From positions 124,001-188,000 of the forward strand of contig JALLLS010000061.1 of NCBI GenBank assembly GCA_025094145.1: a stretch of DNA of 64,000 nt, in the 5' to 3' direction. Positions 2,788 through 58,357 of this stretch are shown piece after piece; within the stretch, counting starts at the first letter, position 1, and each line of letters opens with the position of its first letter. The notes below the pieces were generated by a model. The model saw nothing but the letters and a program-made list of their open reading frames with translations, made no database searches and was not told the DNA's origin. A program made the position numbers and the translations under genes. The stretch comes from Spinellus fusiger. Lineage: Eukaryota; Mucoromycota; Mucoromycetes; Mucorales; Phycomycetaceae.

Positions 2788-5700
2788 ATGTTTAAACAAA
2801 CAAACAGTCTGTGACCAGTACAAGCGATGTTTTGCAGCTCACCTGTGTTCTCTGCAAAGAGAGATCCAAAAAAATATTGGAAGACAAAACCCCGTTGTGC
2901 TCTGTTAAGATGGAGGAATTTGCTGAGAGACTCAATGAGTCAATCTACAAGGCCCTGGATGATAGCTTAGGGCGCGCACAATCCCATCCAAAAGCTTGGA
3001 AAAGCTACTGGAATGCTGATCTACAACAGTTAGCTGGCCGTCGTCAAGAACTTTATCGTTTTAGACGACGGGTAGGCAATGATATTGAACGCATTGAAGC
3101 CCACCGCTTGTATGAGGAAGCGTGTTTAGCTTTGAAAAAGGCTATAAAGCAAGCACAACAACAAACCTGGCATGTATTTTGTGATAAAGTCTGTAAGGGA
3201 TTAACAGAGATGACAAGTGCTGTAAAAGGAATGAAGCTGCGGAGACGTTCGCCAATTTCCCTGTCATCTCCAGAGGGCCCTCGGCATGCTGCCAATCGCA
3301 TGATTGACCACCTAGAGAGTGTGTTTGGCGGATCTACGGAAAGACAGGAGCGTCAGGAGTTTATTCTCCAAGACAATCCAGTCCCATGGGACGTAGACTT
3401 TATTCACTCTGCTATTCGAAAGATGCCAAATCGAAAAGCACCAGGCATTAATCATATTAGAGCAGAAATGCTCAAACCCCTAGTTCGATTGCTAGTGCCT
3501 CTGTTACATCAGATCCTCACATTGTGTTGGAGATGGTCGTGGACGCCTGTGGCCTGGAGAACAGCACAGGTGGTACCTATTTACAAAAACAAAGGAGAGC
3601 AGGATGACCCTAGTAACTATCGGCCTATTAGCTTGACATCGGTGTTTCGTAAGCTCTTAGAAAGATGTATAGCTGGGGAGCTCCTTTCAATCATGCCTGC
3701 ATTGGACATGGCTCAAGGTGGATTTCGCGCTCGTCGTGGAACTCTAGACCGAGCCCTCTGTCTCCACGAACTTATGGGGTTGTACGCTGCCCAAGGATCA
3801 GGAAGCAAGATCTAAAACCTCCAGTCGTCGTCTTCCTAGACATTAAAGCTGCATATGATAGTGTGGAACGCTCTGTCATATGGGAGTCGCTGATGCCCTT
3901 CGTGTCTCAGCCGTTGCTCTTGCTACTACAGAATTTGTTTGATGACATTGTGGTGAATGTGATTCTGAAAAATGTAGCATCCCGGGACATTGCACCTAAA
4001 CGAGGAGTCTTACAGGGTAGTATTCTTTCTCCATTCCTTTATTCTATTTTCATTGATACTCTTCCACGTTTCTTGAGGTTTGCTTTGGTATCCCCAATAC
4101 TGGTTGGTATGCACCCACCTACCATGGGACGGTCCATTAATCTCTGTGCTCGAAATCCTTTCTCTTTTGCTTCCCCACAGGCAACTGTTCACGCATTGCT
4201 TGACGAGTTACAGAATTCCCTTCACAATCCTTTTCCTACTTCTACAGTTTCGGATGACTCTTCTGAGTCGTCAGATTCCTCTTACAGTCGGTCTCATGTT
4301 ACTGTTACTTGGGCTCCTGTGAATTGTTTGTTGTATGCTGATGATGTGGCTCTTATGGGCTGCCCAGAAGATATACATCGAATGCTGGCACTTGCCGAAA
4401 TTCACTCGACCCTCCTTGGTTACAAATGGAGTCCCTCCAAATGTGAAGTACTCAATGCCCCGGCCAATGTGCCGTTTTACCTCTATGGCAACGAGCTTCC
4501 AACCTGTGATACTTTCAAGTACCTTGGTATCCCCTTTTCACGTCAAGGTATTAACCAAGACGCACTGTTCTCACACTCACAAGTCAAGGCAATTGCAGTA
4601 ATGCAAAAGCTGAGAGGAATGGGTGTAAACATGTATGGCTTTGGGATTACAGCAGCCCTAAGAGCGTATACTGTTTTTGTTCGGCCTATTCTTGAGTATG
4701 GGTTGGCTATTTGTAATGTCAATAGATAGGCATCCGCCCGCTACAAATCTGTCAGTCTGCTTGTCTGAGACTTTGTCTTGCTAGATCTGCTACTGCTAGG
4801 TTTGGAACGATCCAGGTTGCCCAATTAGCTGCCCTCCCTAACATATACTCTTGTTTTCTTTATCTGCAAGCCAAATTTGTTAAGCGCGCAGCTACCCTTC
4901 CTGAAGACACCCTCCTTTGGTGCCTTGTCCCGCAGCTTGAAGCACCCCAGAGTAAAGCCAGATGGATTAAGCTATGCGGCAATGTACTCTGGCAAAATGA
5001 TTAAAGAATAGGACGGGCTCACAACCCTCCTAAATATCCATTAAAAGTAGCTTATCTTGAACGTCTTCAAAGTGAAATTACTAGTCTAGTGTGTGGCAAG
5101 AATCCGCTGGTGAAGATAGCCCGTGGACTCTATAGATCTGTTTGGGATCCAATTCTTCCACTACTGTGCACGCGCAAAGAGAGACATTGTCTATTAAAAT
5201 GGAGGATTGCTTGGTTACCACCAACACCTTCAGTTCCTTGCCAATGTGGCCACCCATCTGCCAATCGGACCACTTTCTCACTTGCACATTCGTTGACCAT
5301 GAACGCTCCACGTTCTTGTTCTTTCTAGTTCCTGCACCACCACAAGATGTTCATCCAATTGACTATTGTCTAAATCTTCTGCCGCGCACGGTTAAGTCTT
5401 TTGTTAAATGGTGGGATCTCTGGCCCAGTTTGTTAATACTGCTGCAAGCCATTGATCAAGCCACGTCTACTCGAGACTTTAAGGTAGAGCCATCAGCTGG
5501 TAGCCTGCTCATTGAGGCTGCTGATGGTGTGTTGAGCGGGAACGCCAACGCCGCCATAAAGTGCAAAGACTCCTGCAGCAACAGACGCTGTATCCTCACT
5601 TCTCCTCCGATATCTCCTCTACCACCCATTCTTAACCCGTTTAGCAAAGCCAGAAGCTGCTAGTGTAGTTGCTACATATATTCTCAGGATTGTCCGAGTT

Positions 5701-9666: not shown

Positions 9667-11289
9667 CACTATTTTCACTTATTATTGTCGCACTTTTGGA
9701 AAAAAAATTGTCGCATTAATAAATTAAAAGATGGCGTATAAGTTGGATGCGACAAATGGGACATAAATGTTTTATTGTTAAAGAAGCTTCTCTTGTAAGT
9801 AATCCTCAAATCTATCGACAGAGTATTTGCAAAATCCTCTGAGATCACCGAGAAGAACTTGGTTAGATGCATCGGCGATTATAGATGATAGCGTTTCTTC
9901 TTCCAAGAGTCTTTCTCTTTTCAATTTGCTTTTGCAAACAGACCAGAATTGCTCGATAGGATTCAACTCTGGTGAGTAAGGGGGGAGATAGACACACTTG
10001 TACCCATGGCCTTCAATGAAGCTTTTAATGTCTTCATTCATGTGGATAGGAGCGTTGTCCATAATCAAGTAATTGTCCTTGAAAACATCTGGATAATTGT
10101 CCATGACATCCATTGTATCGCTCAAGAAATTGATATAATGACCAGTAACAGTGCCTTTGCTTTGTTTTTGAGAAGGACCACTAGATCCAGCAGCTCTTCT
10201 CTTCTTTGAAGCAGGCAACATTCGAGGCCGTCTTACTTTTATGTTGACAAGGCCCTGAGCAGATGTTGCTCCCATGATAGTTGTTGTTTTGGCCCTCGTT
10301 CTTGGTACTTTTACTACTGCACGAGTACCTACTTTTGACCAAGAAAAAGTACGCTTCATGTTGATGTGAAATGCCGCCTCATCTATGAAGACACAGTTGC
10401 TCATGTAGTCCACATCCATCTCCATCTATTTTTATACCCACTCCTTTCGATTCTTGATCTTTTCAGGACTATTGCGGTCAACTGAATGAAAATGGGCTCT
10501 TCTTAGACTGATCTTACAATTTTTGGTGACAAAATTGTAGAGAGCTGTTTTCGATATCTCTAAATCAATAAAAGACGTTCTCAAACTCTCCATCATCTGA
10601 TCCAGGACTAAAGAGGGCTGATCGTCTAATAAATCGACCAAAAATCTTTTGTGGCTATCGTCAAGTAGTGCTGGTCTACCAACTGGCCTTCCACTACCTT
10701 CTTTTCTGGCAATGAATGTCTGAGGATTCTGCTGATCGTTTGAGTACCATCACTGAACAGTGTGTGGGTTGATTTGAAGTTTCAGTGCAGCAGCTCTGAC
10801 GCTCATACCCCTTTCATAAATCAACACAAGCAACTGCTCTTTCTCAGAATCTTTGTAATGCCAGTGGATGTCAGGAGCTCTGTTATCCTCTTCCGTATTG
10901 AAATCTCTGTCTACGGATTGTTGTACAGTTATTCTTTCTGGCTTCTTAGGTGGTCTGAGGTCAAGGTACATCCCGAAATTTGTAACCGTCTCAATGGGGT
11001 ACGTCTCCTCGTCTACCTCCATCTCCACTACTGTAACGGCTATTCCCTCATCATTATAGAGATTTAATTGGCCGTCTTCGTGCACAATGTTATTCATTTT
11101 ATTATTATTAAGAAAAGTAAAATATAAGAAAGCCTCAATTACTTAGAATACGCCAGTTTTAAATCTTTTACTATGCCAAATTTTAATTAATTAATGTGAC
11201 GTATTTTATTCTATTAGTACGCCAAGTTTTAATTTATTAATGCGACATATTTTTCTCTAAAAGTGCGACAATAATAAATGAAAATAGTG
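9667..11289 (-). mobile_element. TA-flanked DNA transposon B (IS630/Tc1-like), almost intact
   Basis: 1,623 bp flanked by TA at 9665-9666 and 11290-11291. The terminal inverted repeats read CACTATTTTCAYTTATTATT then GTCGCACTTTT. It carries one long transposase reading frame on the minus strand. It inserted into an older Tc1 relic, of which about 130 bp remain at 11292-11420. Confidence 0.92.
9778..11097 (-). pseudogene. Transposase of element B, DD34E, three in-frame stops
   Basis: One continuous 440-codon frame from ATG 11097 to the stop at 9778, broken only by TGA at 10750-10752 and by TAA 10432-10434 plus TAG 10426-10428. Order: N-terminal acidic domain (EDGQLNLYNDEG, then LDLRPPKKP), helix-turn-helix (GMSVRAAALKLQINPHTVQ), then the DDE domain. 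The catalytic residues are Asp in CVFIDEA, Asp in LIMDNAPIH and Glu in LNPIEQFW, with 34 residues between the last two. The C-terminal Lys/Arg-rich stretch (KSKLKRERLLEEE) is kept. Substituting three codons would give a full protein, so this copy decayed recently. DDE_3-type endonuclease is inferred from motif order. Confidence 0.88.
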
Positions 11290-11420: not shown

Positions 11421-11422
11421 TA

Positions 11423-12783
11423 CAGTGGCTCCTAACAAAACAATGGTATTTTTTCATACCCCGGTATAATTCTGCAATAGGAAATACTTATTCTTTGTAA
11501 TAAAAACATACATTAAACACACAGTAGAGACTTTTAAATTGGATGAAGTATAAAGAAGGTTAACATAATAATAAATAAAAGTTTATTGAGTGGAAACCCT
11601 TAATATTTGGTGCTTCCACCCTTGGCCTCAATGACAGCCCTACATCTCCGCCCCATGCTGGCAATGAGGGAGTCTGTGGTGTCCTTAGGAATATTCTCCC
11701 ATTCTTCCAACAGAAGCACCTCCAAATCTTGTAGAGTACTTCTTGGGGTCATCCTCTTTCTAATGACCCTGTCAAGTTCCTCCTATAAATGTTCTATAGG
11801 GTTGAGGTCGGGGCTTTGTGAGGGCCACCCCTCCATAGTGGCAATGCTCTTATTTGCCTTCCACAACCTGGACTCTCTACTCTTGTGGCAGCTGGCATTG
11901 TCCTCTTGAAGAACATAATCCACCTCTGGATTCAGTGCCTTGAGTCGAGCCAGCTCAGGGCAGTAATTCTCCTTCAAGCTATCAATGTATCTTCTACTGT
12001 CTATACTGCCCTTCACAGGCGCCAATCTTCCAACACCTTCACCAGAGAAAGATCCCCACACCATCACGCTGCCACCTCCAAACTTCATAGTGGGCTTGAC
12101 GTTCTTTGGGAGCAGTCCCTCATTAACTTTTTGCACCACCCTGGTACGTTTGTTGGTGGTGACCAACTGGTATCTGGACTCATCAGACCAGATGACTGTC
12201 TTCCAGTCGTTTTCAGTCCAGTGGAGATGGGCCTTAGCCCAGGCAAGCCTCAACTTCTTGTGCTTGATGCTGAGAGAAGGTTTCTTGACCACCCTGCAAG
12301 AAAACAGGCCAAGCTTCTTCATCAATTTTCTAAAAGTGTTCATGGACACTTGGGTGGTCATCTGCTTGCGAAGCTGATTCATTGTCTGGAATGAATCCCT
12401 TCCCACTTCGCGAGTAACTTCTCTCTCGTCCCTCTCCTTCAGAATGGGCTTGCGCCCAGTGCTCTTCTTGGCCTTGAAACAGCCAGTTTCCTTATATCTC
12501 TTTACGATGAGGGAAACAGACTGTTGACTAACTCCAAACCTAGCAGAAATGGCAGCCTGGCTGGTCCCATTTACGGTGGCCTCGTGAGCAATGAGACATC
12601 GGGTGAAGTCATCGATATTCTTCTTTCTGTTCCCAAGAGGTCTCATGGGTTGTTCGGTGGTGTTATATGAGGTAGACATTAGAGTGGAAAAGCAATAAAT
12701 GAAGAATGTATAATAATAAAAAAATTCAAGGGTAAAATTATGGTCTGATTTTGAAAATACCATTGTTTTGTTAGGAGCCACTG
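11423..12783 (-). mobile_element. Tc1-like transposon, best-preserved copy
   Basis: 1,361 bp with perfect 30-bp terminal inverted repeats (11423-11452 and 12754-12783, starting CAGTGGCTCCTAACAAAACA) and TA target duplication at 11421-11422 and 12784-12785. Its transposase frame has a single nonsense codon. Sister copies lie at 917-2775 and 31632-32983. The right TA is also the first two bases of the LINE target site at 12784-12794. Confidence 0.95.
11600..12679 (-). pseudogene. Tc1-like transposase with one amber codon
   Basis: Cuts and pastes the element at TA sites. The start is taken at 12679 (MSTSYNTTEQ) because the sister copy at 31735 starts at the same place; the upstream in-frame ATG lies inside the terminal repeat. 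Order: basic N-terminus, paired helix-turn-helix (AISARFGVSQQSVSLIVKRY), a second DNA-binding part (TGRKPILKERDER), then DDE: Asp in WSDESRYQL, Asp in LQEDNASCH, Glu in SPDLNPIEHL, 35 residues between the last two. Immediately after IEHL a TAG replaces the Trp expected in the family; the frame then goes on (EELDRVIRKRM) to TAA at 11600. Without that codon it would be 359 aa, normal Tc1 size. Confidence 0.9.
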
Positions 12784-17593: not shown

Positions 17594-19144
17594 TAACAAA
17601 AGCCAGAGTTATGTCATTCACTCCGCTTGGAGAAATCTGACTAAAATCTATTGTAAAAAAAACACATACACACAAAGTTAGGAAAATTGTATAAGTATTA
17701 ATAAATTTGCAAATGATTTAAGCAAATCTCAAAATAGGAATGGAATCAGATTATTTAGTAAGACCTCAGTATAATACGAAAGTTTTCCACAATTGCTTAA
17801 CAATTGAGTATCAGACTTGTGTATTTGAGTACAAGACTCCATATTACCAAAGAGATCCTTGGTGAGAGATTGACAGGAATGGATTATTTATAAAGAATGC
17901 TTTGTTATGTACAATTGATATACACTATCTTCACAAATATCTGTCTAGAACCTATAAACTTTATTTCATCATTAGAATGAAATGTGTTTTATATTTACAA
18001 CAAATGCAATAAATATTGAAAATGCCGACCTCTCTTTTAGTGTAAAGTTAACTAAAGATGTTTATTAAATAGACTTTTGATCAAGACAATATTAAAATCA
18101 CAGGTTAATTCTATTAGTAAAATGCATTTCTCAAGTTTAGTATTATTCTCAAGATGTCTTATAATAACTGAATGCCGAGTCAATACATTTCATTCTTCTT
18201 CTGAAACAAGAAGATAATCCGAACACCAAGAACTACGGAAAATAAATCATGCGACATAAAAAAGAGTGAGATGGGGCAGTCCGACTACCTTACCTGTCTG
18301 GATGTCCTAGAAGATGTCTGTTTATTAGCAGCAACTAGTAATTTGGCAATGTTACTTAAGTGGAACTAGCAGACAAGACTATAACTTGTAGACAACTACA
18401 AGAATAAGAATATTAATAATAAAAAGGTTATGTTCCCAGTAAAATAGTATACTACGACCGGGCAATGAAGACTTCAAATGGAAGGTAACGACTAGTGCTT
18501 TTGTTTGTCCTGTCTTGTTTATGTGTTCTCCGTCGTATCATTATCCTCTCAATACTCTGTACACTCCACATGCTCTCTGATTTTTGGTGGAATTACACAC
18601 CATGTTCATTACGCTATGTTTTGCACCAATCAAGACATCCCCTGTATGTACGACACTGAGTCAATAGCTAACCCTTACAAGGCCTTACGAGTCTGTAAAA
18701 GGTCATTCAGTGCCCAACTCTATATTTCTTTAATGTCACAAAACGTGTGGATGTGTATTGTAGTTTTTCTTTTCGAATTGGTCGAGACAATGTGATAAAC
18801 TTCTACAATTTTATATTAATACGAGTCTTTTTAGTATTTTTTGTCTTTTTTAACAAACACTTGTTTTGTTTTTAAACGAGAAATAAGCTTGGTAATTAAT
18901 GTCTTTAATATCATAAACATCACTAACCATAATTATTCTTTTATATTACACTTACTGCCTGTGTTCTAAAGATATAGACTATCTATCCCCGTCTAACTCA
19001 CTGGGTACAGCTGGTGTTATGAGTACCTCTGGCTTTTTGACGTCTGTAGATCGTATAATATCTGTCAATTCTTCCATTGATTGGATCAATTGACAAGGTG
19101 GATATAAATATATTTTAGAGCAGCTAGTTATTACAGTCAGTACC
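17594..19144. other. Gene-free AT-rich stretch left of the Fanzor relic
   Basis: No supported gene. A frame at 18505-18795 has no recognisable content. A patch near 18270-18300 resembles 55875-55915 (gggcag..cc..tctg.ttggatgtyct), which hints at an old repeat. I found no terminal repeats that pair across the Fanzor relic. Confidence 0.4.
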
Positions 19145-20873
19145 ATGAAAAATCATATTCTTTCTCTAAACTTATCTTTCCTGCACGAACTTCATGCTGA
19201 TATAAACTTTGAAATCGATTCTTATCTTAACATGGACTTTTTCTCTGAAATATGACTTTCTCTTACAGACTACAGCATATAAAGATCTCGAGCTCCAATA
19301 ACGGTGTTATTTAGACAATTGATTGATCGTTGCAAAAAGAAGACTACTTAAATATTGCTCAATATTGGCCGCCTACATTTAAATATGGTCAACAAACAGC
19401 TCTTTATGAAGGTTAAAAATATTCAAATGAGATTTGGGAATCATTTACGACTGGCTATTGATGTATTAATTAATATTCGGCAGAGAGAGGCAGAGGTTCG
19501 AAGAAAACTGGCTACTCAAGGAACCGATGAAAATGAAATAAGAAACTAAGTATATCACAGAATAACCAATCTATCAAGGAAATTCGAGATATTGTTATCT
19601 CGCAGACATATCGTCCCAGATTTTTTCATAACTGTGCTCGTACCAAACAGCCCCCAATGAATACATATTCATTGCAGCAGCCGATTATATGCCAAAACAT
19701 CCTGGATCGACGATGACAATAATATTGACAAGTTGGATTATTGAATAGAAGTAGTAAATTTAGATTCTGAACCTTTTAAATCACAAAAATGGTATCCTTG
19801 CTTTTAGAGGCAATGTTTAGACTAACGGTGTTGGCTTATCTATAACAAAAAAGCGTATGGACAAACCTATAAGACATTATAGTTCACTTAAATCTATTCC
19901 AGAAAACATACAAGACATGCATCAGCTTGAGCCTGAAGATCATCAAAATCTTGTCAATAGATGTGTTGCAATAGATCATGGAAGACGAGATATCTTATAC
20001 TATGTTCACTAGTTCTCTATAACTACAACACTTCAGAAATTTCACTTTACCAAGCCTCAGTAGGATCTATGGACAAAGGCAGAAAGTTTTTTTTTAAAAA
20101 AAAAAAAAGTTAGAAGCTGCTGAAACCAAAGATATTCAAACTGTAAAGCAAGCACTAGTTAATTCATCAAGTTTAGATACTAATCATTATACACAATTTT
20201 TACATACTATATATGATCTTTCCGAATTTCTTTCCAATCTTTATACCAACACAAATACAAGAAACCAAATGAGATATTTTCAGATAATAAAATTCGTTCA
20301 ATTCGATATTTACAGCAACAAAAATTAAATATAAAGTTGATCAGATACTTAAAAGATAAATTCTCTAATGCTGTAGTAATGATGGGAGGCTAGTCATTTC
20401 CCAATACGAAGTATCATGAACCAATGCACAGTGTAAGCTTGTGGAAACTACTAACAAAATCCGGATCTCATGTCTTTTTGATTGATGAATTTAAGACCAG
20501 GAAATATTGCCCCACACGTGGAGATGAAAGTTTGAGAGTTACTAAGCGTTAATCCATGCCCATATAGAATAAATTGAACACCAGCTGTTCCTTGTCATGG
20601 TCTTTAAAGATATAATGATGGATTGTAATATTATATCGACGTACATTTTCTTTTAGATACACCAATCAACAATACCCACAGACTAATAACACAGGAACAA
20701 ACACCACTAGACACCGTTTATGGAATCGTGATATGACTGTTTGTTTGAACATGATTCATATTATACACAATCTTCGTGATCATAGTGCCATACAAGCTAG
20801 ATTCATGCGCCCTATTACTATTACTATTACTATTACTATTACTATTACTATTAACAATACCATACCAAACTGA
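19145..20873 (+). pseudogene. Fanzor (eukaryotic TnpB-like RNA-guided nuclease), decayed
   Basis: Remnant of an OMEGA-type nuclease with a split RuvC domain. The N-terminal region is in one frame (19355-19549: NHLRLAIDVLINIRQREAEV). From about 19790 to the stop at 20871-20873 the rest is in another single frame with several stops: TNGVGLSITKK, then RuvC-I (CVAIDHGRRDI, catalytic Asp codon at 19974), RuvC-II (VFLIDEFKTRKYCP, Glu codon at 20487), and RuvC-III (WNRDMTVCLNM, Asp codon at 20730). All three catalytic codons survive and share a frame. The zinc ribbon is damaged: CPTR stands where CPxC is expected. The reading frame ends in an ATTACT repeat. The start is a guess. About 1.7 kb agrees with Fanzor size. 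The family call rests on motif order and spacing, not on a search. Confidence 0.78.
20814..20853. repeat. (TTACTA)n microsatellite
   Basis: Roughly six and a half copies of a six-base unit. In the Fanzor frame it codes alternating Ile-Thr just after the RFMRP sequence. Confidence 0.9.
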
Positions 20874-21799
20874 AGAGAAAGATAAGCCAACAAAGAAGAA
20901 ACACGCCAAACCCGCCAAAGATTGTAAATTTTCCTGTACAGTTATTGCTGTACCATTCATAGTACTTTTATAGGCCATAATACATTACTCTATAAAATAT
21001 ACTAGCTTTGTTTTTTTCTTTTAATTTTCTCTCTTACTCTTACTTTATTTAAATGTAAGTTAAATAACAAATATCCATTGCTTTTTATTATTAATAATTT
21101 TTCCATGTGCCATTTCTAAACCTATTTGTCTGTCAGTTTTTACTTCATTTATTGGTCAATTTCTTTTTTATATATGTGCCAATTTTTTTGCTAATAATAC
21201 GCTAATAATTTATGAATAAAGTAGACAAGAAAACTTTAACTTCACTACCAAAAGAATCTGGTAACATTTTGGCTTTTAAAAAGGCTTTCTGTGATATATA
21301 AGACGGTTAATTATTTAACGCTAAACAGTGTTATAGCTGTCTGAGAATAAAATGTGTCATTAATGTATATTTGGACAAGACAGCTCTCCCAAATAGGTAT
21401 TTACGCTGTTTTCGTAGTCATACAAGATGCACCAAACAGACAATAGAGTAAAATCCAAGTAGTAGAATAAAATACAGAAAAGCGCCTTGTCTTTCTCAAC
21501 AATATCTATAAGAATGACTTCTATAATTAATTGATTTCTCATATTTAAGGATCTTATAGAATATAGGCTAATACATGACTAAAGTATATCAAGGAAGTAT
21601 ATTCAGAGTTGAGATTTGATGTGGAAATTATTCCACTAACATCACCACTATAATCTGCTTGCCCAATCTCGTAAACCCAGCAATAGACAAAGACAATTCC
21701 ACCATCTATAGGCTATTTCCACCAAAAATAATACAAAATAATACAAGCAAAAGAATAATGAGTTATCGGAGTCATATTGGGCAGAAAGTAACATTGGTT
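20874..21799. other. AT-rich intergenic stretch
   Basis: Between the Fanzor relic and the transporter gene. No gene is supported. If the relic had a guide RNA it would be expected just downstream of 20873, but I cannot recognise a conserved fold here. Confidence 0.4.
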
Positions 21800-21829
21800 C
21801 CAATCCAGAAAATAGTTTAGTATAAAAAG
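21800..21829 (+). promoter_or_regulatory. CCAAT box and TATA box of the transporter gene
   Basis: CCAAT at 21800-21804 (and an inverted ATTGG just before, at 21793-21797) and TATAAAAAG at 21821-21829, about 65-70 bp upstream of the ATG. A CT-rich tract follows up to the start codon, as is common at fungal transcription starts. Confidence 0.6.
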
Positions 21830-21891
21830 ACGTTTTCTAATTTTATGATTTTCTTATTCCTTTTTTATTTTCTTTCCTCCCCCTTCTGAAT

Positions 21892-23728
21892 ATGGACTCA
21901 AAATCAGAAGTAGGCCTTAATGGCACAATATTATCTGGATCATCAATATATACTGTGAAAGAAAATAGCCAGAATCAAGATGTTCCTACTTCTATACACA
22001 AAGCTGATCCAACCTTAGAAAAGGTCGAATCAAATTATGATGGCCATAGGCTTGAGAAGTCCGATACCAGACATACACGTGGGTTCATCTTGTTTAGATA
22101 AATGTATATCTGTTTTCATATATCTGACTTTTCAATGAAATAGGTGTTGATATGGCAAGCATTATTGAGCCTGTAGGTGATGAAGATTTTTATAATTCTA
22201 TACCTGATGGTGGCTACGGATGGTAAACTATCTATACACCGAAGAAATCAATTATTTATGTAGTGTATCTAGGGTGATCACATTTGTAGGGTTTCTTGGT
22301 AACTTTGTCATGTTTGGCTTAGTTACAATATGGGGTAATATATAGAATTAAAAAAGTTGAAGAACTGTTCACTCAATTGTATTTTTCTTTAGGTATATTA
22401 TCCAACGAACTCTTGAATAATCAGTACAAAGGCCAGACTACCATGCTAGAGCTTATGGGCATTGGAACTGTTACGCTTGCAGGGATCAACGGGTTTACTT
22501 TTCTTAATGTATACCTTGACAGGCTTGGTGCTCGTTGGGTCATGTTTATTGGTTCTCTTTTAATTTCCCTTGGAATGATTATCTCTGGATCAACCAACAA
22601 AGTTTGGCAGCTTTACTTGACTCAAGGCCTCATGCTTGGTTTGGGAGATTCTATTGTTTACATGGTATACAAATGGAATTATTTTTATATTAAAATTTAC
22701 AACTTACTAATCATGTCCTATAGTGTATTGTTGGTGTTGTTCCTCAATGGTAAGAAACGGTTAAATATTTTTGCATATCACCATATTGAACTTAAAATAT
22801 ACCAGGTTTACTACTAAACGTGCACTTGCTATGGGAATTTGTTCTGCTGGTACTGGTATTGGCGGTCTTGCTCTGAGTCCTTTAGTAAGCGATTATTGCG
22901 TTATTGATGCATATAACTTATGCTGTATAACAGGCCAATGTATTATTGGAAAAGTATGGCATTGCATGGACCTACCGTATCCTTGGTTTAATGGCCTTTG
23001 GTATCTCTACTATTTCTATCTGCTTAATACGTACTCGCCTTCCACCCGGTTACTCTAAAAGACCTATCAAAAGTCCTATTGATCCAAAGATGTTCAGAGA
23101 TGTGAATCTTATCATATGGTCTGCAGGTGCCTCTATTTCTCTTATTGGCTATTATACACCTCTATTCTATATTCCAAGTAAGCGAAAAGACATATATAAG
23201 CGAAAAGACATTAACACCGCACACATCATAGGATATGCAAACGCTATCGGAATTGACCGAGCTGATGCTTCTAACATTCTAGGTGTGTGTGCAGCTCTGA
23301 ATGCAATAGGCCGTATTGTTCTAGGCTTCATTGCTGACAAGGTTGGACGAGTCAATACATACATCGTGTCTGCGATCATCTCTGGTGTTTTATGTATGGC
23401 TTTCTGGCCTAACGCCACTACCTATGGTGGTTTAATTGCCTTTGCGTGTCTTTTTGGATTCTTTGGCGGAATGTACTTTGCATTAGCAGCACCTATCACT
23501 GCTACTATCACTGGTTTCGAAAAGATATCTTCAGGATTGGCAATCCTATTTTTGATTTCTACATTTTCAGCAGTTGGTCCACCCATTGCATCTGCTATTC
23601 AGGCATCAACCCCAAATGAATCATTCATCGGTATTCAGATGTTCTGTGGTGCTGTCTTTTTTGTAGGGGCGATCTCCTCTATGATTGTTAAACTTAGAGT
23701 CACTAAATCACTATTTTCTATATATTAG
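21892..23728 (+). CDS. Monocarboxylate-transporter-like MFS permease, eight exons
   Basis: Probable plasma-membrane or organelle carrier of the MFS monocarboxylate porter family (fungal MCH type); the substrate cannot be told. Exons: 21892-22078, 22144-22222, 22273-22334, 22393-22664, 22724-22749, 22806-22884, 22934-23177 and 23232-23728. All have GT-AG borders and phases that fit, giving 481 aa. After a hydrophilic N-terminus comes the family signature PDGGYGWVITFVGFLGNF split by intron 2. Then come membrane helices in the usual 6+6 arrangement, with the loop RLGARWVMFIG, and the second-half signature (ALNAIGRIVLGFIADKVGR). Intron 7 (23178-23231) removes an odd KRKDIYKRKDI stretch and gives a typical YIPRYANAIGI, so that stretch is not coding. 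No damage seen. Confidence 0.92.
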
Positions 23729-29113: not shown

Positions 29114-30489
29114 CACTCCCACGTAATAAGTGACTGGAAAAAATATTAATTTCCTTTTTTTATTCTTCAAAAATAAAATAGACCTCTTTTCTTTTCTTTT
29201 ATAACTTATTCAAAAAATGTCTTCAAGCAATGAAAACCAGCCAACTCTTAGCCAAGAACATGAAGATACTTTTATTAAAAGAAGGGAGCATGATATGTTT
29301 ATTAGAGGTCAAATCATTGGACAATGGAAAAGATATGCTACTTATCAAGAGATTTCTGACGATCTTGACATCCCAGTGAGCACAGTGGGCAGGATTATCC
29401 AATTGTATAAGAACGAAGGCATAAATCGACCTAAAGTGCGTACAAGAAGACCTGAAAAGGCTTCATCTACTTCAAAACTGGAAATTGTTTTATCTATTCG
29501 CAGAAACCCTATGAAAACAATTGCATATCATTTGAAGAATATCAATGATGCAGGCGTGGATATTTGTCGTAGCACATTTGTAAAATACACAAATGAACTC
29601 GGGTTTTTTCATGCTCACCATCAAGGAAACCTGGTATGACACTTACTCATAAGCAAAGGCGATTGGAATGGTGTAGAAACAAGGTTGATTGGCCAGTGGA
29701 TAGGTGGAGTAACGTCGTTTGGTCTGATGAGTCTCGTTTCACAGTTGTGGGCAACGATAAAGGAACTAGGGTGATCAGAAAAATGGGTGAGAGGTATGAA
29801 GAGCGTCATACGCAAAGGACATACAATTATGGCAAAGGTTCAGTCATGGTTTGGGGTTGCTTTTGGCGTGGAGGTGTAGGACCTCTTGTACTCTTGGAGG
29901 GGTCAGTTGATCAAGACAAGTATGTCAATGTACTTGCCAAATACTTTCTTCCCTGGTTCCAGAAATTGCAAAAGAACCTCAATGAGACCATGCTCTTCCA
30001 AGAAGACGGTGCTCCTTGCCATACTGGAGGATATAGCAGATGGTACAAACAGGAGAGATGTATGATCGAAGGTTTTGATTTTTGGCCTGCACAAAGTCCA
30101 GATCTTAACCCAATTGAGCATGTCTGTGCTTATCTTGAGAAGAAGATCAATCTTCATTGAAAAAGTATAACCAATGCAAAACAGCTTGAACGATGCTTGT
30201 GTGATGAATGGGAAAAGATATCAAATGAATTTTTGGAAAATTTAGTTGATAGCATGCCAAGGAGGTGCTCTGCTGTGATAAAGAATAAAGGCTTTGCTAC
30301 AAAGTACTGAGAAATATTTATATAATGAAAATGTAGATAATCATCTAAAGAACAACTGTTCCAAATCTTGTGTTATTCCATGAACTTTTCATTATGAACA
30401 TCTTGGACTGATAGAAATACCTTTATTTTTCAAAAAAATAAAATTCAAAAAAATTAATATTTTTTCCAGTCACTTATTACGTGGGACTG
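29114..30489 (+). mobile_element. Tc1-like transposon F, nearly intact
   Basis: 1,376 bp flanked by TA (29112-29113, 30490-30491). The terminal inverted repeats of about 38 bp begin CACTCCCACGTAATAAGTGA on the left and CAGTCCCACGTAATAAGTGA on the right. It encodes one transposase on the plus strand, broken by one frameshift and one nonsense codon. The element at 39742-40442 is an internally deleted relative. Confidence 0.94.
29217..30310 (+). pseudogene. Tc1-like transposase of F, one frameshift and one stop
   Basis: The start MSSSNENQPTLSQEHED is at 29217. A helix-turn-helix follows (YQEISDDLDIPVSTVGRIIQ). The frame is lost near 29620, where the expected RKPGMT lies in another frame, consistent with loss of a single base. 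The next frame (29636 on) holds Asp in VVWSDESRF, the block GKGSVMVWGCFWRGGVGPLV, Asp in LFQEDGAPCH and Glu in SPDLNPIEH, 36 residues between the last two by my count. A TGA at 30158-30160 stands where the relative at 40100 has CGA (Arg). The frame then runs to the natural end (VIKNKGFATKY, stop 30308-30310). Only these two lesions separate it from a full protein of about 364 aa. Confidence 0.9.
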
Positions 30490-31631: not shown

Positions 31632-32983
31632 CAGTAGAGGTCAATAAAACAAGGATAGTTTCAAATTCAGACCATAATTTTACCCTTGAAATTTTTTTTA
31701 TTAAATATTCTTCATCTATCGCTTTTCCACTCTAATGTCTACCTCATCTAACACCACCGAACAAACCAAAAAACCTCTTGGAAACAGGAAGAAAAATATT
31801 GACGACTTTACTCGTTGTCTCATCGCTCACGAGGCCACTGTCAATGGGACCAGCCAGGTTGCCATTTCTGCTAGGTTTGGAGTTTGTCAGCAGTCTGTTT
31901 CCCGTATCGTAAAGAGATACAAAGAAACTGGATGCTTCAAGGCCAAGAAGAGCACTGGGCGCAAGCCCATTCTTAATGAGAGGGACGAGATACAAGTCAG
32001 TCGCGAAGTGGCAAAGGATTCATTCCAGACAATGAATCAGCTTCGCAAGCAGATGACCACCCAAGTGTCCATGAACACTTTTAGAAAATTGATGAAGAAG
32101 CTTGGCTTATTTTCTTGCAGAGTGGTTAAGAAATCTTCCCTCACCAACAAGCACAAGAAGTTGAGACTTGCTTGGGCTAAGGCCCACCTCCACTGGACTG
32201 AGGAAGACTGGAAGACAGTCATCTGGTCCAATGAGTCCATGTACCAGTTGATGAGGACCAACAACTACAACAGAGTGGTGTAAAAAAAGGAGTGGCTGAT
32301 CCCAAAGAATTTCAAGTCCACCATAAAGTTTAATGGCGTCAACGTGATAGTGTGGGGTTCTTTCTCTGGTGAAGGTGTTGAAAGGTTGGTGCCTGTGAAG
32401 AGCAGTATAGACAGTAAAAGATACATCAGGATCTTAAAGGAGAATTACTGACCTGAGCTGGATAGAGTCAAGGCACTGAATCCAGAAGTGGGTTATGTTC
32501 TTCAAGAAGACAATGCTAGCTGTCACAAGAGTAGAGAGTCCAGGTTGTTGAAGGCACAGGAGAGCATTGCCACTATAGAGAGGTGGCCCTTATAAAGCCT
32601 CGACCTGAACCTCATAGAACATTTATGGGAGGAACTTGACAGGACTATCAGAAAGAGAATGACCCCAAGAATTACTCTACAGGATTTGGAAGTGCTCTTG
32701 TTGGAAGAATGGGAGAATATTCCTAAGGACACCACAGACACCCTCATTGCCAGCATGGCGCGGAGATATAGAGCTGTGATAAAGGCCAAGGATAGAAACA
32801 CCAAATACTAAGGGTTTCCACCCAATAAACTTGTATATAATATCCTGTTTACCTTTAGACTCCATCCAATTATCGAGTCTACTGTGTGTTTAATGTATGT
32901 TTTTATGACAAAGAATAAGTATTTCTTATTACAGAAGCATATCGGAATGTAAAAGGTTATCCTTATTATTTTGACACCCACTG
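31632..32983 (+). mobile_element. Tc1-like transposon, sister of 11423-12783
   Basis: 1,352 bp between TA dinucleotides (31630-31631, 32984-32985). The terminal repeats are diverged (CAGTAGAGGTCAATAAAACA left; CAGTGGGTGTCAAAATAATA right, inward). The right TA is at the same time the left TA of the element at 32986, so the two are back to back. Confidence 0.88.
31735..32811 (+). pseudogene. Tc1-like transposase, several stops
   Basis: Same protein as at 11600-12679, starting MSTSSNTTEQTKKPLG. The first 182 codons are open up to a TAA at 32281-32283, just after the first catalytic block (TVIWSNESMYQL, where the catalytic Asp has become Asn). The rest stays in net frame with further stops (for example TGA near 32451) and keeps LQEDNASCH and EHLWEELDRTIRKRM, ending at TAA 32809-32811. 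It shows that the residue after EHL is Trp in this family. Inactive. Confidence 0.88.
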
Positions 32984-32985
32984 TA

Positions 32986-45020: not shown

Positions 45021-48000
45021 AAAAAAAAATAAGAGTCAAATCAAAAAGAAGGATGATAAAGGAAGTGTGTACGACAAAGCTAACTTACTCAAGCTGAGTC
45101 CACTTAAAAATGCAATTTAGAAATAGAATGGCAAATCGCCCAAAGTTACACGTAATGACGATGAATGCCATCTCCATAAAACTTGATATAATCAGAGAGC
45201 TCAGTCTTCTCACTTGACTCTTTATTATGAAGCAGTAATAAAGCTAAACATAAAAGTAAAGTTAGAAAAGGAGTCATTGTTCCTGTAAACAGTTCACTAC
45301 TATTCCTGTGATTGTACTTCAGACTGCCTACTTTCTTTAGTAACAGTAAAGTAATTTCATTTTACCTCATTTTTGAAGGGCTGAACAAAAAAGGAATATA
45401 TATTTGCAGTTAAAAAATCAATGCAGATGTCAAAAACTCAAGAAAGTCAAACGAGATTGCGACTTTTGACTGTTACAAGAGCAGCGACCGAACAAAATGT
45501 TACACATGATACATATTTAAACCCGATAAACCTTAATTTTGATGAACCCAACGCTGGATTTTGAAGATAATTAAAGAACTGCTGTTTCATAATGTAAGTA
45601 TTTCTCAATGTATTCAACTACAACCTAATTACTGATGTGTTTTATAGGCACCACTAAAACATTAACATTATTTATTATCCCTAGTGACAATAGATATTAC
45701 CATGTGGGATCATACAAGTGTTAACTGGGGTGTAGTCTATATTTATTTATGGAAGCAACAAACAGCAACAAAATGAGAGAAGAAATATCCACATTTTTGT
45801 TTGACACTATTGTGAATGTTTTTTTTTATATTTCTATTTCCAATAGAAAAATACCGTGTCTAAACTCCTGCGAATGAGGTTGGTTATTCAAGGTTGTTAA
45901 TTGGTGGTTTCATGGCTATACCTTACAGTACTATAGGCAGCTCTCATGACCCTTCTACAATATCAGGAGGTCCAGAAAAATTAATGTAAAATATAAGGAA
46001 AAAAGGCCAGGTTAAATATACCAATTGAAGGATTTATTTTTATCTCTAAAAGCTCATCTTCCTTACAGCACCAATTCCTGTCGAGCCAGGTTATTACGCC
46101 TTATGGAAAAAGTCTATATCTTAGCAAAGCACTTTCTATCATTTGTTATTGTTCCAAGGGTCTATTTTCTATATTTAGTTTTCAAGTTTGTATATTATAC
46201 AAAGGCATGGTTTACTACATAATCTCAATTTGTTGGAAGAAGGAGAGATTGAAGATCCCAGAAGTGTAGTCATGCAAGGGCCCTTTGTGTCATAAAATAC
46301 ATTTTTGCACCTCTTTTTAGAAAATAGCAATTGAAGAATGCCTGTCATTATAGTTAAATTCAGGCCTGGGAATGCCTAAATTATTTTTATATTCTCAAAA
46401 GTGATTGAGCTAAATACACATTCTGAAACCACGCTGCCTTTCTCTCTCTACACGTGTAATAAATCTAAGCTTACCTGTGTGCTAAATTCCATATTCCACC
46501 TTTGCTTTCCTCTGTCGGCGTAATTAGCTAAAGATCGATCTTATTTTCTCTCTCTTTTTTTCCATCTTTCTAAAAGGGTTCTCCAACCTAACTACTTGAT
46601 GTTTTGCAGGGTTCATCAACCGTCCTTATGGTTTGCCTGGACTAGGATCGCCCAGTTACTGGATGATCGATAATTCCTACTCCGTACCGGATTCCAAATG
46701 AGATCTTTAAGCATTAGCATAGCCATCGACATATCCATGCATATTTTTAGTATGTGATATCTATGCTATCTTGATCTCGATTGCTTACATTATCATATTC
46801 AAGGGATCCAGTGTCCCCATTTCTCCTCATCAACACAAGTGGCCTATTGGATCTCACGTGATGTCTATTTGAAGTCTCGGCCTATGAGTATACCTTTTGT
46901 TCACCTGGTGCTGAGTTCTCAATGTTTGTACTATCGTATTTTAGCTAGACTATTTATTTGAGTATGAGTTTTAGCTGGACAAGATTGATGCTGCAGCAAA
47001 AAAAAAGACTGTCTATTCTTTTGGATCTAAGGAATTATCTTAGACAGGTGTCTTATCTTTCTAGTATCCCATGAAAAATCGTACGATATTCAACCGACAA
47101 GGGTCGTCCATTGACTTCAAGGTGTAACCTACCTTCATTGTTAACCAAGCTTTGACAGTTTATTATATTCCTATTTAATTTAAGGGTTTCTACTTGTAAA
47201 AGGGTCTTTTTTTTTACAATGACTGTAAATAAGTCAGGGTGGCAAAAGCCAACACTAGTTTATCAGTAGTAAAACGATACAGGACCCTTTCTACCAAAAT
47301 AAAGTATAGCTCTGAAATGTAAAATTAGTTTAATAAAGAAAAAGTGGATTGAATACAATAAACTCGCTTGCTACTGTAGCCTAGTAAGCTATAGGCTGTC
47401 TATACGTTATTGATGTAATGTAGTAATATATTCATGTAATAATGAATAAATTACAGATATTTTATTTATTATGTATTGTCTATAATAGAGTACAGCTTCA
47501 TAACACTACTGCTCAATGATGTGATGCATGCGTGACTCAGTAAAGTGTCAACCTATAGCTCATTCTCGGTCTTATGCCTTGGTCTTCTTGTTCGTATTGA
47601 TTTCGTATTGTATATTGAACACATACTATCCCACTGAGATTTATTTCAATAAGAACAAGTCAAGGAGTAGCTATGATGAAAGGACATCTGTCAATAAGTG
47701 AGCTATAAGAAATCGATTTGCGTGGCTGGTAAAAATTCATTTCATAAATGATGGTTTCAGACATAGGCCTGATCAGTTCAAGTGCCTTTTTTCACTGCTT
47801 AGCTCCAAATTTGTGATGTATGGAATAAAGATATCATAGCTCATAGTGTCATTACAAAATTCAGAAGAAATTTAAATGTTACTCTTGCACATGACTCATG
47901 AGAGTATTTAGCCTCTCATGAAGTTACCAATTTACAATGAATAAATTCAATTTAAGTAATAAGCAAGCATTTGTACTTACTTATATTTGATAATAAATGA

Positions 48001-53218: not shown

Positions 53219-54370
53219 TTATGAAAATAAATTAGATTGTGTTAATTGCAGTAAAACAGCTATTATTATTGTTATTATTATTGGCCAAAATATTATATCT
53301 ACAGCAGAACTAGTAACTAGGCCAGAATGGAAGAAAGAATAGGCAATTAGTTTCTTTAGAATTGCATTAGAAGTAAGGTCCCAATTTGAGTCACAAGCAT
53401 AATTAAGATGATACTATAGAAACAGAGCATAGCCGTGCTTAGATACTATTCTTATTTATTATAAAATAAGATTGTTAGTAGAAGCAAATATAAGAAAATA
53501 AATAGTGCATCATTGATCAGTCAACAATAAACAGTAAATGAAGAATAACCAGTGCACCACAGTACTCTCTTTTAATTATGCATTCTAGTAGTGCTACGCT
53601 TCCAACATTGTTTTTTTATGCCCGATCTTTCATGATTTTATATATAAAAGTATACTCTACAAAAGAACGAGGATTCCAGCCTTTTGTGATCATTGAATGG
53701 GTCATCTTATTCCCTTTTATCGACTGTTCATAGCACTTTTTATACAAGAGTGCTTTGTTTCCTATTTTATAGGTGCCTCAATCTATGCAATAATAATAAT
53801 AAATTACAATCTTGTTATTTATTATCTATTTATTATAATAATTGGTGTACATATCTTGCCATTAGCAGGTAATAATAATAAGATGGATCTTCGTTGGACC
53901 GAATGTCAAAAGAGAGCCCGCTTCAAAGCCTCGTGGAAGAGGTCCCTTGCCCTGTATGGCTAATTCTATAGAGAGAGAGAGATGAGCCTATTAAGGAATC
54001 TTAAGTCAGCCAGTTGCCTCTATCCCAAGATTAAACTACTCTTAATGATCCACAGAAAGTAGCAGAACAAAACAACTTGATATATAAATATATTTATATT
54101 TATATTTATATATATATATGTGTGTGTGTGTACATTATCACTGGAATACAAATCACATATAGTGTATACATTCTAACAAGTAAGTTTATTATAAGTAATG
54201 TCACTCTATTTCTTATGATTTCACTAAAGAGTATTTATCCTGAAAAGACAGAAAAAAATCATCAATGTTGATTCATAATGCTAATAACTATTAAAATATA
54301 CACTAATATTAACATGTATAGTTCAATAATTATTCATATACATGGATTGTCTTGGTCGTCTACATCATTA
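53219..54370. other. Intergenic, with a doubtful small frame
   Basis: A TATATAAAAG near 53640 precedes an 88-codon frame (53697-53963) with a hydrophobic middle; I cannot support it as a gene. A (TA)/(TG)n run lies at about 54080-54131. Confidence 0.4.
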
Positions 54371-54666
54371 CACATCAGGAGGTCTTTAGGATATAAAAGG
54401 AAATAGTCGAAATACAATTGTTTAAAAATGACCGATTTGAAAAGGAGCAAAAATAAATTATGTATTTATGTTAGATTTTAAATAAAAACTATGTTGATTT
54501 ACCTGTAAATATCTGAATCCCGGAGGAAACCACTTTCGATGTGGCGACATATGATATGAATGCATCAAAAAATATCTATGCTTCTCTACAGAATAGAACT
54601 GGTCGGTGGAGACCCTTTAAACACTCTTCTGCAATTGTATAGATATTCTTTAATGCATTCATATCC
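54371..54666. mobile_element. Foldback MITE, truncated second copy
   Basis: Starts after TA with cacatcaggaggtctttagg and follows the element at 43027-43504 read in the opposite orientation (its arm is closer to the right arm of that copy, and the central loop is reversed accordingly). It ends abruptly at gcattcatatc, so the other arm is missing. Confidence 0.85.
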
Positions 54667-54699
54667 TTGCTCTAAACCATTCCATAACTTTAGCAAGCG

Positions 54700-55228
54700 T
54701 GGATACTGTTGAAATTCATGAATACCTCAGTGAGGATATTTGTGATATAAGTGTGGCAGATCTTGAAAAGAAAAATAAAACAAAGTAACTGTTAGAAGAG
54801 CTTTTTATATTGGGTGAGAGGTCAATAATGCTTACCCTCTATGTTCGAAATTTATCAACATCAACCATAAGAAGATATCCACCCTTTTGTCTCTTTTTCA
54901 ATGATTGATATAAAACTCTCGTCAAACCAACACAATAGCCTTTAAATTTGGTAGTATCTTTTCCTTTCATTCTTGTACCATAAGCAATGACTGGCAGCTT
55001 GGTAGGATCACACTCCAATCCTTTTAGGTGCCAATACCCCCTTTTAATAATAAAACAGTAAAAGCAATTAGTTCGAGATGTATTAATGTACTCTATGTGT
55101 GTCGTATTACCCTTGCACTGGCACCTTCCTCTTGCCTTTGTCTTTGTAACGGATTCACTGGGTTTATTAAAATAAAAGAATATAAAATAGAAACCAACTA
55201 ACATATCAGACACAATAAACATACACAA
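54700..55228 (-). pseudogene. TnpB-like/Fanzor-like C-terminal relic
   Basis: Minus-strand remnant of an RNA-guided-nuclease-like protein of a type different from the one at 19145. One part (about 55190-55110) reads SESVTKTKARGRCQCK. After an intron-like gap (GTAATA…AAAAG, about 55108-55038) comes YWHLKGLECDPTKLPVIAYG, then CVGLTRVLYQSLKKRQKGGY, then LLMVDVDKFRT, followed by a stop. Past a second intron-like gap (GTAAGC…TTCAAG) lies ICHTYITNILTE. The order '…KKRQ.GG…hhVDEFRTS..C..C' is that of the RuvC-II strand and zinc ribbon in fungal TnpB-like proteins; here the Glu position reads Asp and the second Cys is Tyr. The N-terminus and RuvC-III are not seen. The family call is from memory of the motif pattern. 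Confidence 0.42.
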
Positions 55229-56140
55229 ACACTCACCAGATCACAACTGTTGGTTTATATGCCAGACACAGGAAAACAAAATAAAAAGGATAGAAGTTAT
55301 AAAGAACAACAGACAGTGTGTTTGGCAGGTTTTTATATCCGAACAGAAAAGAACAAAACGAATTTTCACAAGTCATTTGCTTAATCAGAACTACCAAAGT
55401 AATGCAGACTACAACAACATTTTAGAAAGAAAAAGAATTGCTTAAAGAACAGTTGCCTAGTTACCAGTTGTGATCAAGTCGTGTGTTGTGTTCCTGTTCA
55501 TGTACCCTCTTTGATTTCCCTAGACCAGCCTTTGTATCCAATACTCCATTTTGTAATCCCTGCTAGAGACTCAATATCTATACATTTATCTCTCTAGTGG
55601 TCCTATTGATAACCACAGTGCCCTTTACTACAGAATAAAGGATATATTTTACAAAGTTACATAGTATAGATCTTGAGGCTAATTTTATATATTTTTAAGC
55701 TATAAGGACCAAAACTATACGATAATAACATCTCAGTGAATTCAGAGATGGATTTCCTCCTCTTGTTCTATGTATGTTTTAAGGGAAGAGATAAACTTTA
55801 TTTACAATAAAATCACTTTATTGAATTCTATGGACTTGAAATACAGGACCAAGATTATACACACTGTAGGATAGGGCAGCCACCTTTCCCAGTCTGCTTG
55901 GATGTTCTATGAAATCGATAGCTATTGCTTGAGAATAGCAAAATAGTCAAATTCATAGTCAAATTCATAGTAAAAGAAATGCCAAACTAATATAAAAAGT
56001 GTAATTGTCTACATTCTTAATAAAATAGACTTTAATACAAACAGCTTCCTAGAGTATAAACAAGATAAGCTTTAAGGACTTGGATAGCTGACTGTTTCTT
56101 GTTCTCGACTTTTTTTCTTTCTGTATTCCCATAGGGTATA
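55229..56140. other. Gene-free AT-rich stretch
   Basis: No supported gene or repeat end, apart from the weak similarity of 55875-55915 to 18270-18300. Confidence 0.4.
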
Positions 56141-56238
56141 CCATTTCCGAGAAGTAATGTCACATTCACTTGTCACATCTGCGTAAATATTGTATTATAA
56201 ATATTTATGAAACGCGACATTAATTTCTGGAAGTAGTG
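56141..56238. mobile_element. 98-bp MITE, copy 2, TA-flanked
   Basis: Same length and only a few substitutions from 6096-6193; TA at 56139-56140 and 56239-56240. Such close identity between sites 50 kb apart points to fairly recent movement. Confidence 0.9.
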
Positions 56239-56354
56239 TACCATTATTATTACAACTACCAGTCTGCCTTCTGTCACTCCATACCCTTCTCTTTTCTGTC
56301 AATTTCCGTATGAGTGACCAGCCTTACGACGTCCTGTGTGTCTCCTGTCTCATA

Positions 56355-57722
56355 GCAACAGAATATTTTTGGGATATAAAAGGAAATACATGAACAATGA
56401 AATTATGTTATTTCTTTGGTTGGCTAATGTGTTTGAAAAGAGCCTTCTCACTGTCTGTCTGTCTTGGCATTGACTATAGACTGTGTAATTAAACACTATA
56501 AAGTTGGATAAAAGGAAGAAGTAAACCTGACATTGCAACTCAATCACTGCATTTAATGTTTAACATGTGTTAACTATAAGCCCATAGTATTTGCAACATA
56601 ACACTGCTTAAGAAAGATGTATTACAGAGCTTATAGAGTTAACTCTAGTGATTATTATCCAGAAAATAGAACCAAATTCACTTAAATTGAGAACACTATA
56701 GCCATTCATTGACTCAATATTCATAATAACTTCAACTATCTGATTGTAACTGGTATTAACAATAGTACTTAGTGGAAACAAGGTATTGTTTCTAATACTG
56801 GACTTTAGGCTCAAGGTAAATAGAGTGTGAATTGTTTGACTTGTAAATTTGACTTGTAAATTGTTTGACTTATGAATTTTATGAGTGGAGGCTAGTGTAT
56901 ACATCACCAGAATAGAGAAAGAAAGATTATTATTTGTTTTGATACTTCCCTCTTTTTTTTATTTCTTACACTGCACATACAACTTAACACCCAAGTACTC
57001 GTCAAGATGAGCATAAATAAGCAAGGTAATGTGCCATTATTAACAAAGCGAAACAATAGAAAGAAGTTTTAGATACCACCAAGGACTATTCTGAAAGTAA
57101 AAAGGTAAGCAGTGTCTTCCTCTGGGCTTGAGCTCATTGTAATCCATAAGGCATAGTATTGACTCTTCTTCCAATAGATAATACATAGCCATTATTCTCA
57201 AGACAAGTATTAAGCACAAGGTAAGCATATTATCTCTCTTATTGAATTATTACTAATACACTCTTCTGTTATTAGATAAGTTAAGACTGTTCTCAAGTCA
57301 GTCTCGGGTGGTCTATTCTTCCTTCTATACTGTCTAAGGTGTCTATACTGTCTAGGGTATACTCTTGAGCATAGTTATCTATCTCCCAAGGATAAAGTAT
57401 AAGGCTTTTAAGGTGTAAATTCTATTGCTATGAAGTAATACGCCTAGAACAGCAGTAGCTATAGTAATAGTATATTATTAGCTACAGTATTACTCGCTAT
57501 ATTATTACAATAAACAATTTTATCCATCAACAATTTTATTCATCAACACTATATTCTATTGATAATACAATTTGATATTGAGTTATCCTACAAAAGGAAA
57601 CAATTATTTATATACTTGCAAACCTTTGATTTTTAAACACGGTCCCATAAAAGGCAAGAAATTTTATGTCTAGAAAGGAAGGAGATATCCCCGCCTAAAA
57701 GCCAGAAAAATCTCCTGGTGTG
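56355..57722. mobile_element. Element R, copy 3
   Basis: 1,368 bp relative of 15599-17593 and 25159-26289, without the solo LTRs that interrupt those copies. The right end aaaaatctcctggtgtg followed by TA (57723-57724) is well kept. The left end (gcaacagaatatttttggga after TA) is decayed. No coding capacity. It is the empty-site reference for both LTR insertions. Confidence 0.75.
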
Positions 57723-58357
57723 TAGTAGTGTTGTGCCTAGAAGTATGGATACACACACTTATCATCACTGCTTTCAAGACAGACAGATGGATACTTTTAT
57801 AAGTGGGTATCTTTTACAGATAGTGTTACTATGGATGTTCTTTACTGTACATTACTAATGCTCTCTTGTCCATAGATTCCATCGATATTGGTGTCTCTTA
57901 TTTGTTATTAAATCCAGATAGACGATAGCATTGTGTATTCAATATATATATCTCTTTAAACTGAAATAAACTTGTCTGTTCTAGTGTACTATTTCCATAC
58001 AACAAATGATTCTATCAACACGCAAAGTCTATAGTCAATAGCCCTCCTCCTTCACTCTTCTTTGACTTTGCCGACTGTTTCAAATAGCAGATACCTTATG
58101 AATCAAACAACAACCACCTACCACCTCTATTGAACAGATCAGGACATCTATTCGTCTATATGCATCAATCAAATAGAGTTCAATAACTCTATACATACTT
58201 ATTGATGTGCAGTTGAAAAGGGAAAACATTTTAATTGAATAAAAACTTGAAAAGATTCAAGGAAAGATGCATAATGAATAAAGAAAGAAAGAAAGAATAG
58301 ATGAGCAGAAAGCGGTAGAGCCATTAATGATGATCACTCTCTAACAGTGATCACTTA
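57723..58357. other. 3' flank of the DEAD-box gene
   Basis: AT-rich DNA with a short AAAG run near 58283. It should hold the polyadenylation site of the minus-strand helicase gene. No gene seen. Confidence 0.4.

Follow-up and report, generated by a model that had tools for sequence, protein, structure and literature searches.

The window, the 64-kb stretch of Spinellus fusiger DNA analysed here, holds what sequence comparison identifies as a genuine Fanzor1 relic of the Parasitella parasitica Fanzor1 (PpFz1) kind, together with a ghost-like family of short copies elsewhere in the genome. Our overall reading, to which we assign a probability of about 0.93, is of a dead PpFz1-kind gene in an element that likely lacks its own transposase, descended from an RNA-guided ancestor and leaving gene-less ghosts at 33 places. 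The element holding the relic measures ~3.3 kb and spans about 17.9 to 21.22 kb of the window, so the extent of 19145–20873 proposed in an earlier note on this DNA is too small. Its parts are as follows.

17915–18492, plus strand: 5′ terminal region of the element, with 75–82% DNA matches to four short elements at other sites of the genome.
19175–19606, plus strand: Fanzor1 N-terminal (REC-side) remnant in the frame of 19145, a separate match to PpFz1 chain 556–708 (E = 8.7e-4).
19797–20063, plus strand: Fanzor1 WED/RuvC-I remnant with the TNG block and catalytic Asp codon 19974 (PpFz1 chain 833–924).
20107–20316, plus strand: RuvC connecting part, readable by eye in the next frame.
20325–20519, plus strand: Fanzor1 RuvC-II remnant with catalytic Glu codon 20487 and a broken first zinc knuckle (PpFz1 chain 1110–1175).
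20697–20777, plus strand: Fanzor1 RuvC-III remnant with catalytic Asp codon 20730 (PpFz1 chain 1217–1243).
20932–21222, plus strand: 3′ end of the element, with DNA matches at 33 other places; a guide RNA scaffold would be expected here.

The translation of 19145–20780, with stops written as X, was compared with 177,635 distinct PDB sequences. Up to E = 10 this returned two matches only, both Fanzor1 proteins: PpFz1 as the best (E = 2.4e-19) and Spizellomyces punctatus SpuFz1 as the second (E = 0.0028). These matches bear out the earlier note's decayed Fanzor, and the N-terminal part that it placed upstream is recovered independently by the separate match at 19175–19606; where that note looked out for no match at all, or a better match to a RuvC-fold family without TnpB ancestry, the PDB gave Fanzor1 proteins alone. 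In the same alignment each acid of the split RuvC triad D-E-D lies opposite its PpFz1 counterpart (D/D, E/E, D/D). The catalytic codons named beforehand read as GAT (D) at 19974, within CVAIDHGRRDI, GAA (E) at 20487, within VFLIDEFKTRKYCP, and GAT (D) at 20730, within WNRDMTVCLNM; taken by itself, the RuvC-III stretch gives a weak PpFz1 alignment of 2.1 bits.

Fanzor1 signatures, as set out in sections of a 2023 paper (PMC10711439), are DPG in RuvC-I and a TDG motif in WED. The relic has TNG where WED has TDG and DHG where RuvC-I has DPG, one substitution each, with T, D and G kept; the TNGVGLSITKK block, previously singled out as conserved, aligns as TNGVGLS with TDGVGVS of PpFz1. PpFz1 (PDB 9cf0–9cf3) is alike as the closest match over the N-terminal, WED and RuvC-I, II and III parts, and unlike in that the relic is broken and carries these two substitutions. 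The first and second catalytic residues are 171 apart in the relic, against 270 in PpFz1 and 158 in SpuFz1. In PpFz1 a RuvC insertion, FRI, binds cyclophilin, and according to the part of the paper describing it the authors found FRI only in Parasitella and Rhizopus (PMC11423790); the shorter D-to-E spacing indicates that the insertion is absent or deleted in the relic. The connecting stretch 20107–20313 matched nothing in the PDB up to E = 10, the three forward frames of 19145–20900 gave a single Pfam match short of the cut-off (E = 0.15), and a comparison of the relic with 5.8 billion predicted proteins yielded 1,891 candidates, none at E ≤ 0.01.

To judge from its sequence, the Fanzor1 gene at 19145–20780 is dead: stops interrupt it, its frame shifts and its zinc ribbon is ruined. 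Three stops fall in 19797–20063, one in 20325–20519 and none in 20697–20777, and these four across the three aligned stretches agree with the broken codons reported earlier. The N-terminal remnant (frame of 19145) and the RuvC stretches (frame of 19146) differ in frame. The earlier statement that the three RuvC motifs lie in one net frame holds for the motifs, codons 19974, 20487 and 20730 all sharing the frame of 19146, but the frame is only a net one: by eye, the protein-like reading of 20107–20316 belongs to the next frame, preceded by a T/A homopolymer. The first zinc knuckle is CPTR for the CPKC of PpFz1, with loss of a cysteine in a ribbon that the same note had called broken, and the presumed second knuckle holds a stop by eye. 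The ribbon keeps its position and has lost its ligands, as expected of a relic. One apparent frame change sits at the homopolymer, as it might if the lesions were sequencing or assembly artefacts in a gene that is really intact; we consider this reading very improbable, as the first zinc knuckle was altered by a substitution and not an indel, and the homologous copy on contig C142 (73% DNA identity) has 13 stops in two matched pieces too. A CTATTA microsatellite occupies 20812–20859, roughly where the chain length of PpFz1 would put the end of the Fanzor C-terminus.

Comparison with other copies places the left end of the element near 17915–17923, with TACACT at 17921. An end near 21222 is supported because the flank used as a control (21260–22220) has two other genome matches, none of them in its first 549 bases. 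A Tc1/mariner-type element would have terminal inverted repeats, a TA target duplication and its own transposase. Inverted repeats starting TACACT occur at the ends of several copies, and TA at several ends; in three of seven copies the terminal inverted repeats beat at least 1,997 of 2,000 random pairs, the window copy falling below that. The sole open reading frame of 90 or more residues within the element encodes 96 (18505–18795). A Pfam search of six frames of 17915–21222, with X at stops, returned nothing at E ≤ 1, and there is therefore no recognisable transposase of its own. The element around the gene is likely a transposable one without a transposase of its own.

In a survey of 10 of the 57 open reading frames listed for the window, pieces of reverse transcriptase and Tc1/mariner-type transposase were recognised at 2811–4729, 9778–10425, 11783–12781, 29217–29639 and 31735–32283, in keeping with the transposon bed described earlier. 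Ordinary genes of the window include a major facilitator transporter piece (22946–23728) and a 617-aa frame for a DEAD-box helicase (58358–60211).

We searched the window's own genome (38.1 Mb) at the DNA level, where counts of places are lower bounds. With 20300–21260 as query at least 35 places were found (all 35 candidates scored), namely the window, C142 and 33 others. At these 33 the match starts no earlier than query position 627 (window 20926) and the coding DNA is unmatched; counted by hand, the match starts at 627–635 in 25 of the 33 and ends at 917–924 in 20. The query 18150–18600 found at least 24 places, window and C142 included, and when the two lists were compared by hand a 5′ piece lay within about 1 kb of the 3′ end in 11 of the 33. 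Ends of a Fanzor locus without a Fanzor gene are accordingly counted at 33 places by the 3′ end, 11 of them with the 5′ piece too. The short elements measured are about 0.36 to 1.4 kb long and carry about 150–200 bases without a window match between their 5′ and 3′ pieces; a match on C24 carries one short copy on to 18849. Among four short copies matching both regions, identity to the window is higher in the 3′ end than in the 5′ region in two and lower in the other two.

Only one other of the 35 places, C142:45909–46797, has the catalytic coding part (55–58% protein identity, and 73% DNA identity over 45962–46797). This copy is broken, with nine and four stops in its two pieces, and has part of the 5′ region, the coding part and the 3′ end arranged as in the window. 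The interior (18600–20300) has five other partial genome matches, and further partial coding copies exist, since two places on C117 match 18801–19326 and so reach the N-terminal coding part. The earlier note held that the element had been active in this lineage, for which the 33 places with the 3′ end and the one further copy with the catalytic part provide support.

Spizellomyces punctatus offers the closest parallel for such an arrangement: the relevant portion of a Nature 2023 paper counts 134 ghosts, in which the ends stand without the gene, beside 42 loci where an Fz gene is present in whole or in part (PMC10432273). SpuFz1 and its Spu-1 element with ghosts resemble our case in being a Fanzor1 element with ends that are also met in copies lacking the gene. 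As far as that portion describes them, the S. punctatus ghosts are about 550 nt long, whereas the short elements here range from about 0.36 to 1.4 kb, and the present family comprises two dead catalytic-part copies and 33 places without that part. By anatomy the 33 gene-less places likely correspond to such ghosts, the 11 two-ended ones most fully. Alternatively, the short elements would be no Fanzor ghosts, and the gene would have been inserted into, or captured by, an independent MITE-like family. The presence of the catalytic coding part in only two of the 35 places (window and C142) and the middle ~150–200 bases unlike the window both speak for capture; against it, C142 keeps the window's succession of partial 5′ region, coding part and 3′ end. 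Because that order is kept, these parts moved together on at least one occasion, which is still compatible with a capture before that, and we regard capture as unlikely, at perhaps one chance in a handful, relative to the ghost reading that we retain.

Fanzor families were surveyed in 2013, reportedly by Bao and Jurka. Parts of that survey describe Fanzor1 families from Mucor, Rhizopus and Phycomyces, several of which sit in elements that have no matching transposase, as well as a Fanzor family of about 150 copies in a red alga (PMC3627910). The Mucor, Rhizopus and Phycomyces families (MCi, ROr and PBl) are alike by description only, as Fanzor1 in Mucorales transposable elements (PMC3627910, same parts), and Fanzor elements at hundreds of copies are mentioned in a passage of the 2023 paper (PMC10711439). 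On the evidence of these excerpts, Fanzor genes in broken or partial form, Fanzor elements in high copy number and ghosts have all been published before. What is new, on sequence comparison, is that the relic sits in a ~3.3-kb element with a 3′ end found again at 33 gene-less places; among openly licensed PMC papers we found no published description of this relic-bearing element.

Other Fanzor-like loci are numerous in the same genome. Another dead gene resembling PpFz1 occupies C142:37501–38709 (PpFz1, E = 1.1e-10), with a near-duplicate on the minus strand of the same contig (C142:111352–112562; 96% and 90% identity in two pieces). As a genome query the former returned 79 matches, a figure that counts the query and split pieces too; 14 of the 79 fall within frames that run for at least 300 codons free of stops. 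Stop-free frames with Fanzor1-like matches reach 663 codons at C110:854652–855071, 641 at C2:337163–337579 and 550 at C121:237273–237674, and because of these the genome likely has intact Fanzor1-like paralogs, a check that the earlier note had proposed. A 66-residue query from PpFz1 RuvC-II gave at least 150 genome matches (150 scored of 209 candidates), window and C142 included, and 117 of the 150 scored are stop-free inside the matched stretch (counted by hand). The relic is apparently one casualty amid many Fanzor1-type loci that look open in their DNA.

A separate high-copy element was considered as a source of paralogs of the relic and rejected, having other ends and elements without DNA match to 17915–21222. 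Three matches of 17915–21222 do fall in flanks of such elements, one of them a short copy adjoining an element on C30. The window has its own copy on the minus strand (54369–57725); the element reaches about 3 kb and its ends are CTACACACCAGGAGAT and ATCTCCTGGTGTGTA. Its TnpB-type zinc ribbon (PF07282) has at least 150 genome matches (150 scored of 457 candidates), and its Fanzor nature is based on this ribbon and a RuvC-II-like motif seen by eye; an apparent intron, also by eye, precedes the ribbon. One copy (L030) gave no Fanzor match in the PDB, its best being LaTranC (E = 0.028). The family set comprised 31 copies (L006–L035 and the window copy), two of them gapped and one not alignable. 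At the presumed RuvC-II glutamate codon, 18 of the 28 readable copies have Glu and 10 have Lys. A nuclease-dead subfamily of this element may have spread, because the Lys copies occupy several places of the tree, over which they are scattered and which is weakly supported. Two further stretches of the window, 11421–12679 and 31735–32985, match (90% and 86%) a repeat adjoining the high-copy element in locus L023.

A conserved structured RNA had been anticipated near 20700–21300, and here Rfam, RNAalifold, shuffle and helix tests gave no support. We aligned 30 3′ ends, those of the window, of C142 and of 28 short copies out of the 33. Before folding we removed five whose 3′ tail was missing or unrelated, five with different starts, gaps or insertions, and two (L060 and L076) that nearly duplicated rows still in the set. 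On the remaining 18 RNAalifold predicted no pairs, and the window's 3′ stretch folds no better than its shuffles (z = +0.43). Of two helix sets named by hand, P1+H2 scored under its shuffles, and the covariation score of P1+P2 was equalled or passed by 11 of 500, too weak to claim; for P1+P2, 39 of 500 shuffles equalled or exceeded the cells changed on both sides and 146 of 500 reached the number of pairs so changed. Rfam at gathering thresholds had no match in the whole 64-kb window. A guide-RNA role for 20932–21222 would therefore draw on knowledge of the family, since fold, Rfam and conservation comparisons gave it no support.

On the reading we prefer, the gene's ancestor, while intact, would have encoded a DNA-cutting enzyme directed to its targets by a guide RNA, probably transcribed from the element's 3′ terminus and the DNA beside it. 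A transposase acting from elsewhere would have moved the element, and cutting likely helped it to persist on such moves, as published TnpB and Fanzor work suggests. The gene would then have decayed through stops and frame changes, and short gene-less copies would remain at 33 places, all retaining the 3′ end and at least 11 also the 5′ region. A different possibility is that the gene, though nuclease-dead, still supplies from its 3′ end a guide RNA for an intact Fanzor elsewhere, the locus itself acting as a ghost. Retention of the 3′ end at 33 places without coding match would fit this, as would the Fanzor1-like open frames elsewhere (14 of 79 and 117 of 150 matches) and the finding, in the portion of PMC10432273 that treats it, that S. 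punctatus ghost guide RNAs work with SpuFz1. Yet the 3′ end shows no conserved fold, occurs together with coding DNA only in two dead copies and may have been retained merely as a transposition end, and we hold a working guide RNA at this locus to be improbable, at odds of about one in eight.

The dead Fanzor is here tied to apparent gene-less relatives within one genome, a genome very rich in Fanzor1-like loci, many of them stop-free in the matched stretch. The less ordinary part is that both known catalytic-part copies are dead, 33 places keep the 3′ end and other Fanzor-like loci are abundant. Conceivably, though with slightly less chance than a working guide RNA from the relic, this is an orphaned ghost family, a lineage that has lost all its working nucleases but retains the guide-RNA end in 33 gene-less copies, which unrelated intact Fanzors of the same genome would serve in trans; RNA-guided mobility would then be a shared and parasitised resource. 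Fanzor action in trans on other elements is raised as a possibility in a passage of the Nature 2023 paper (PMC10432273), and a genome in which ghosts coexist with dead enzymes and with others that look live would be a good place to ask about it.
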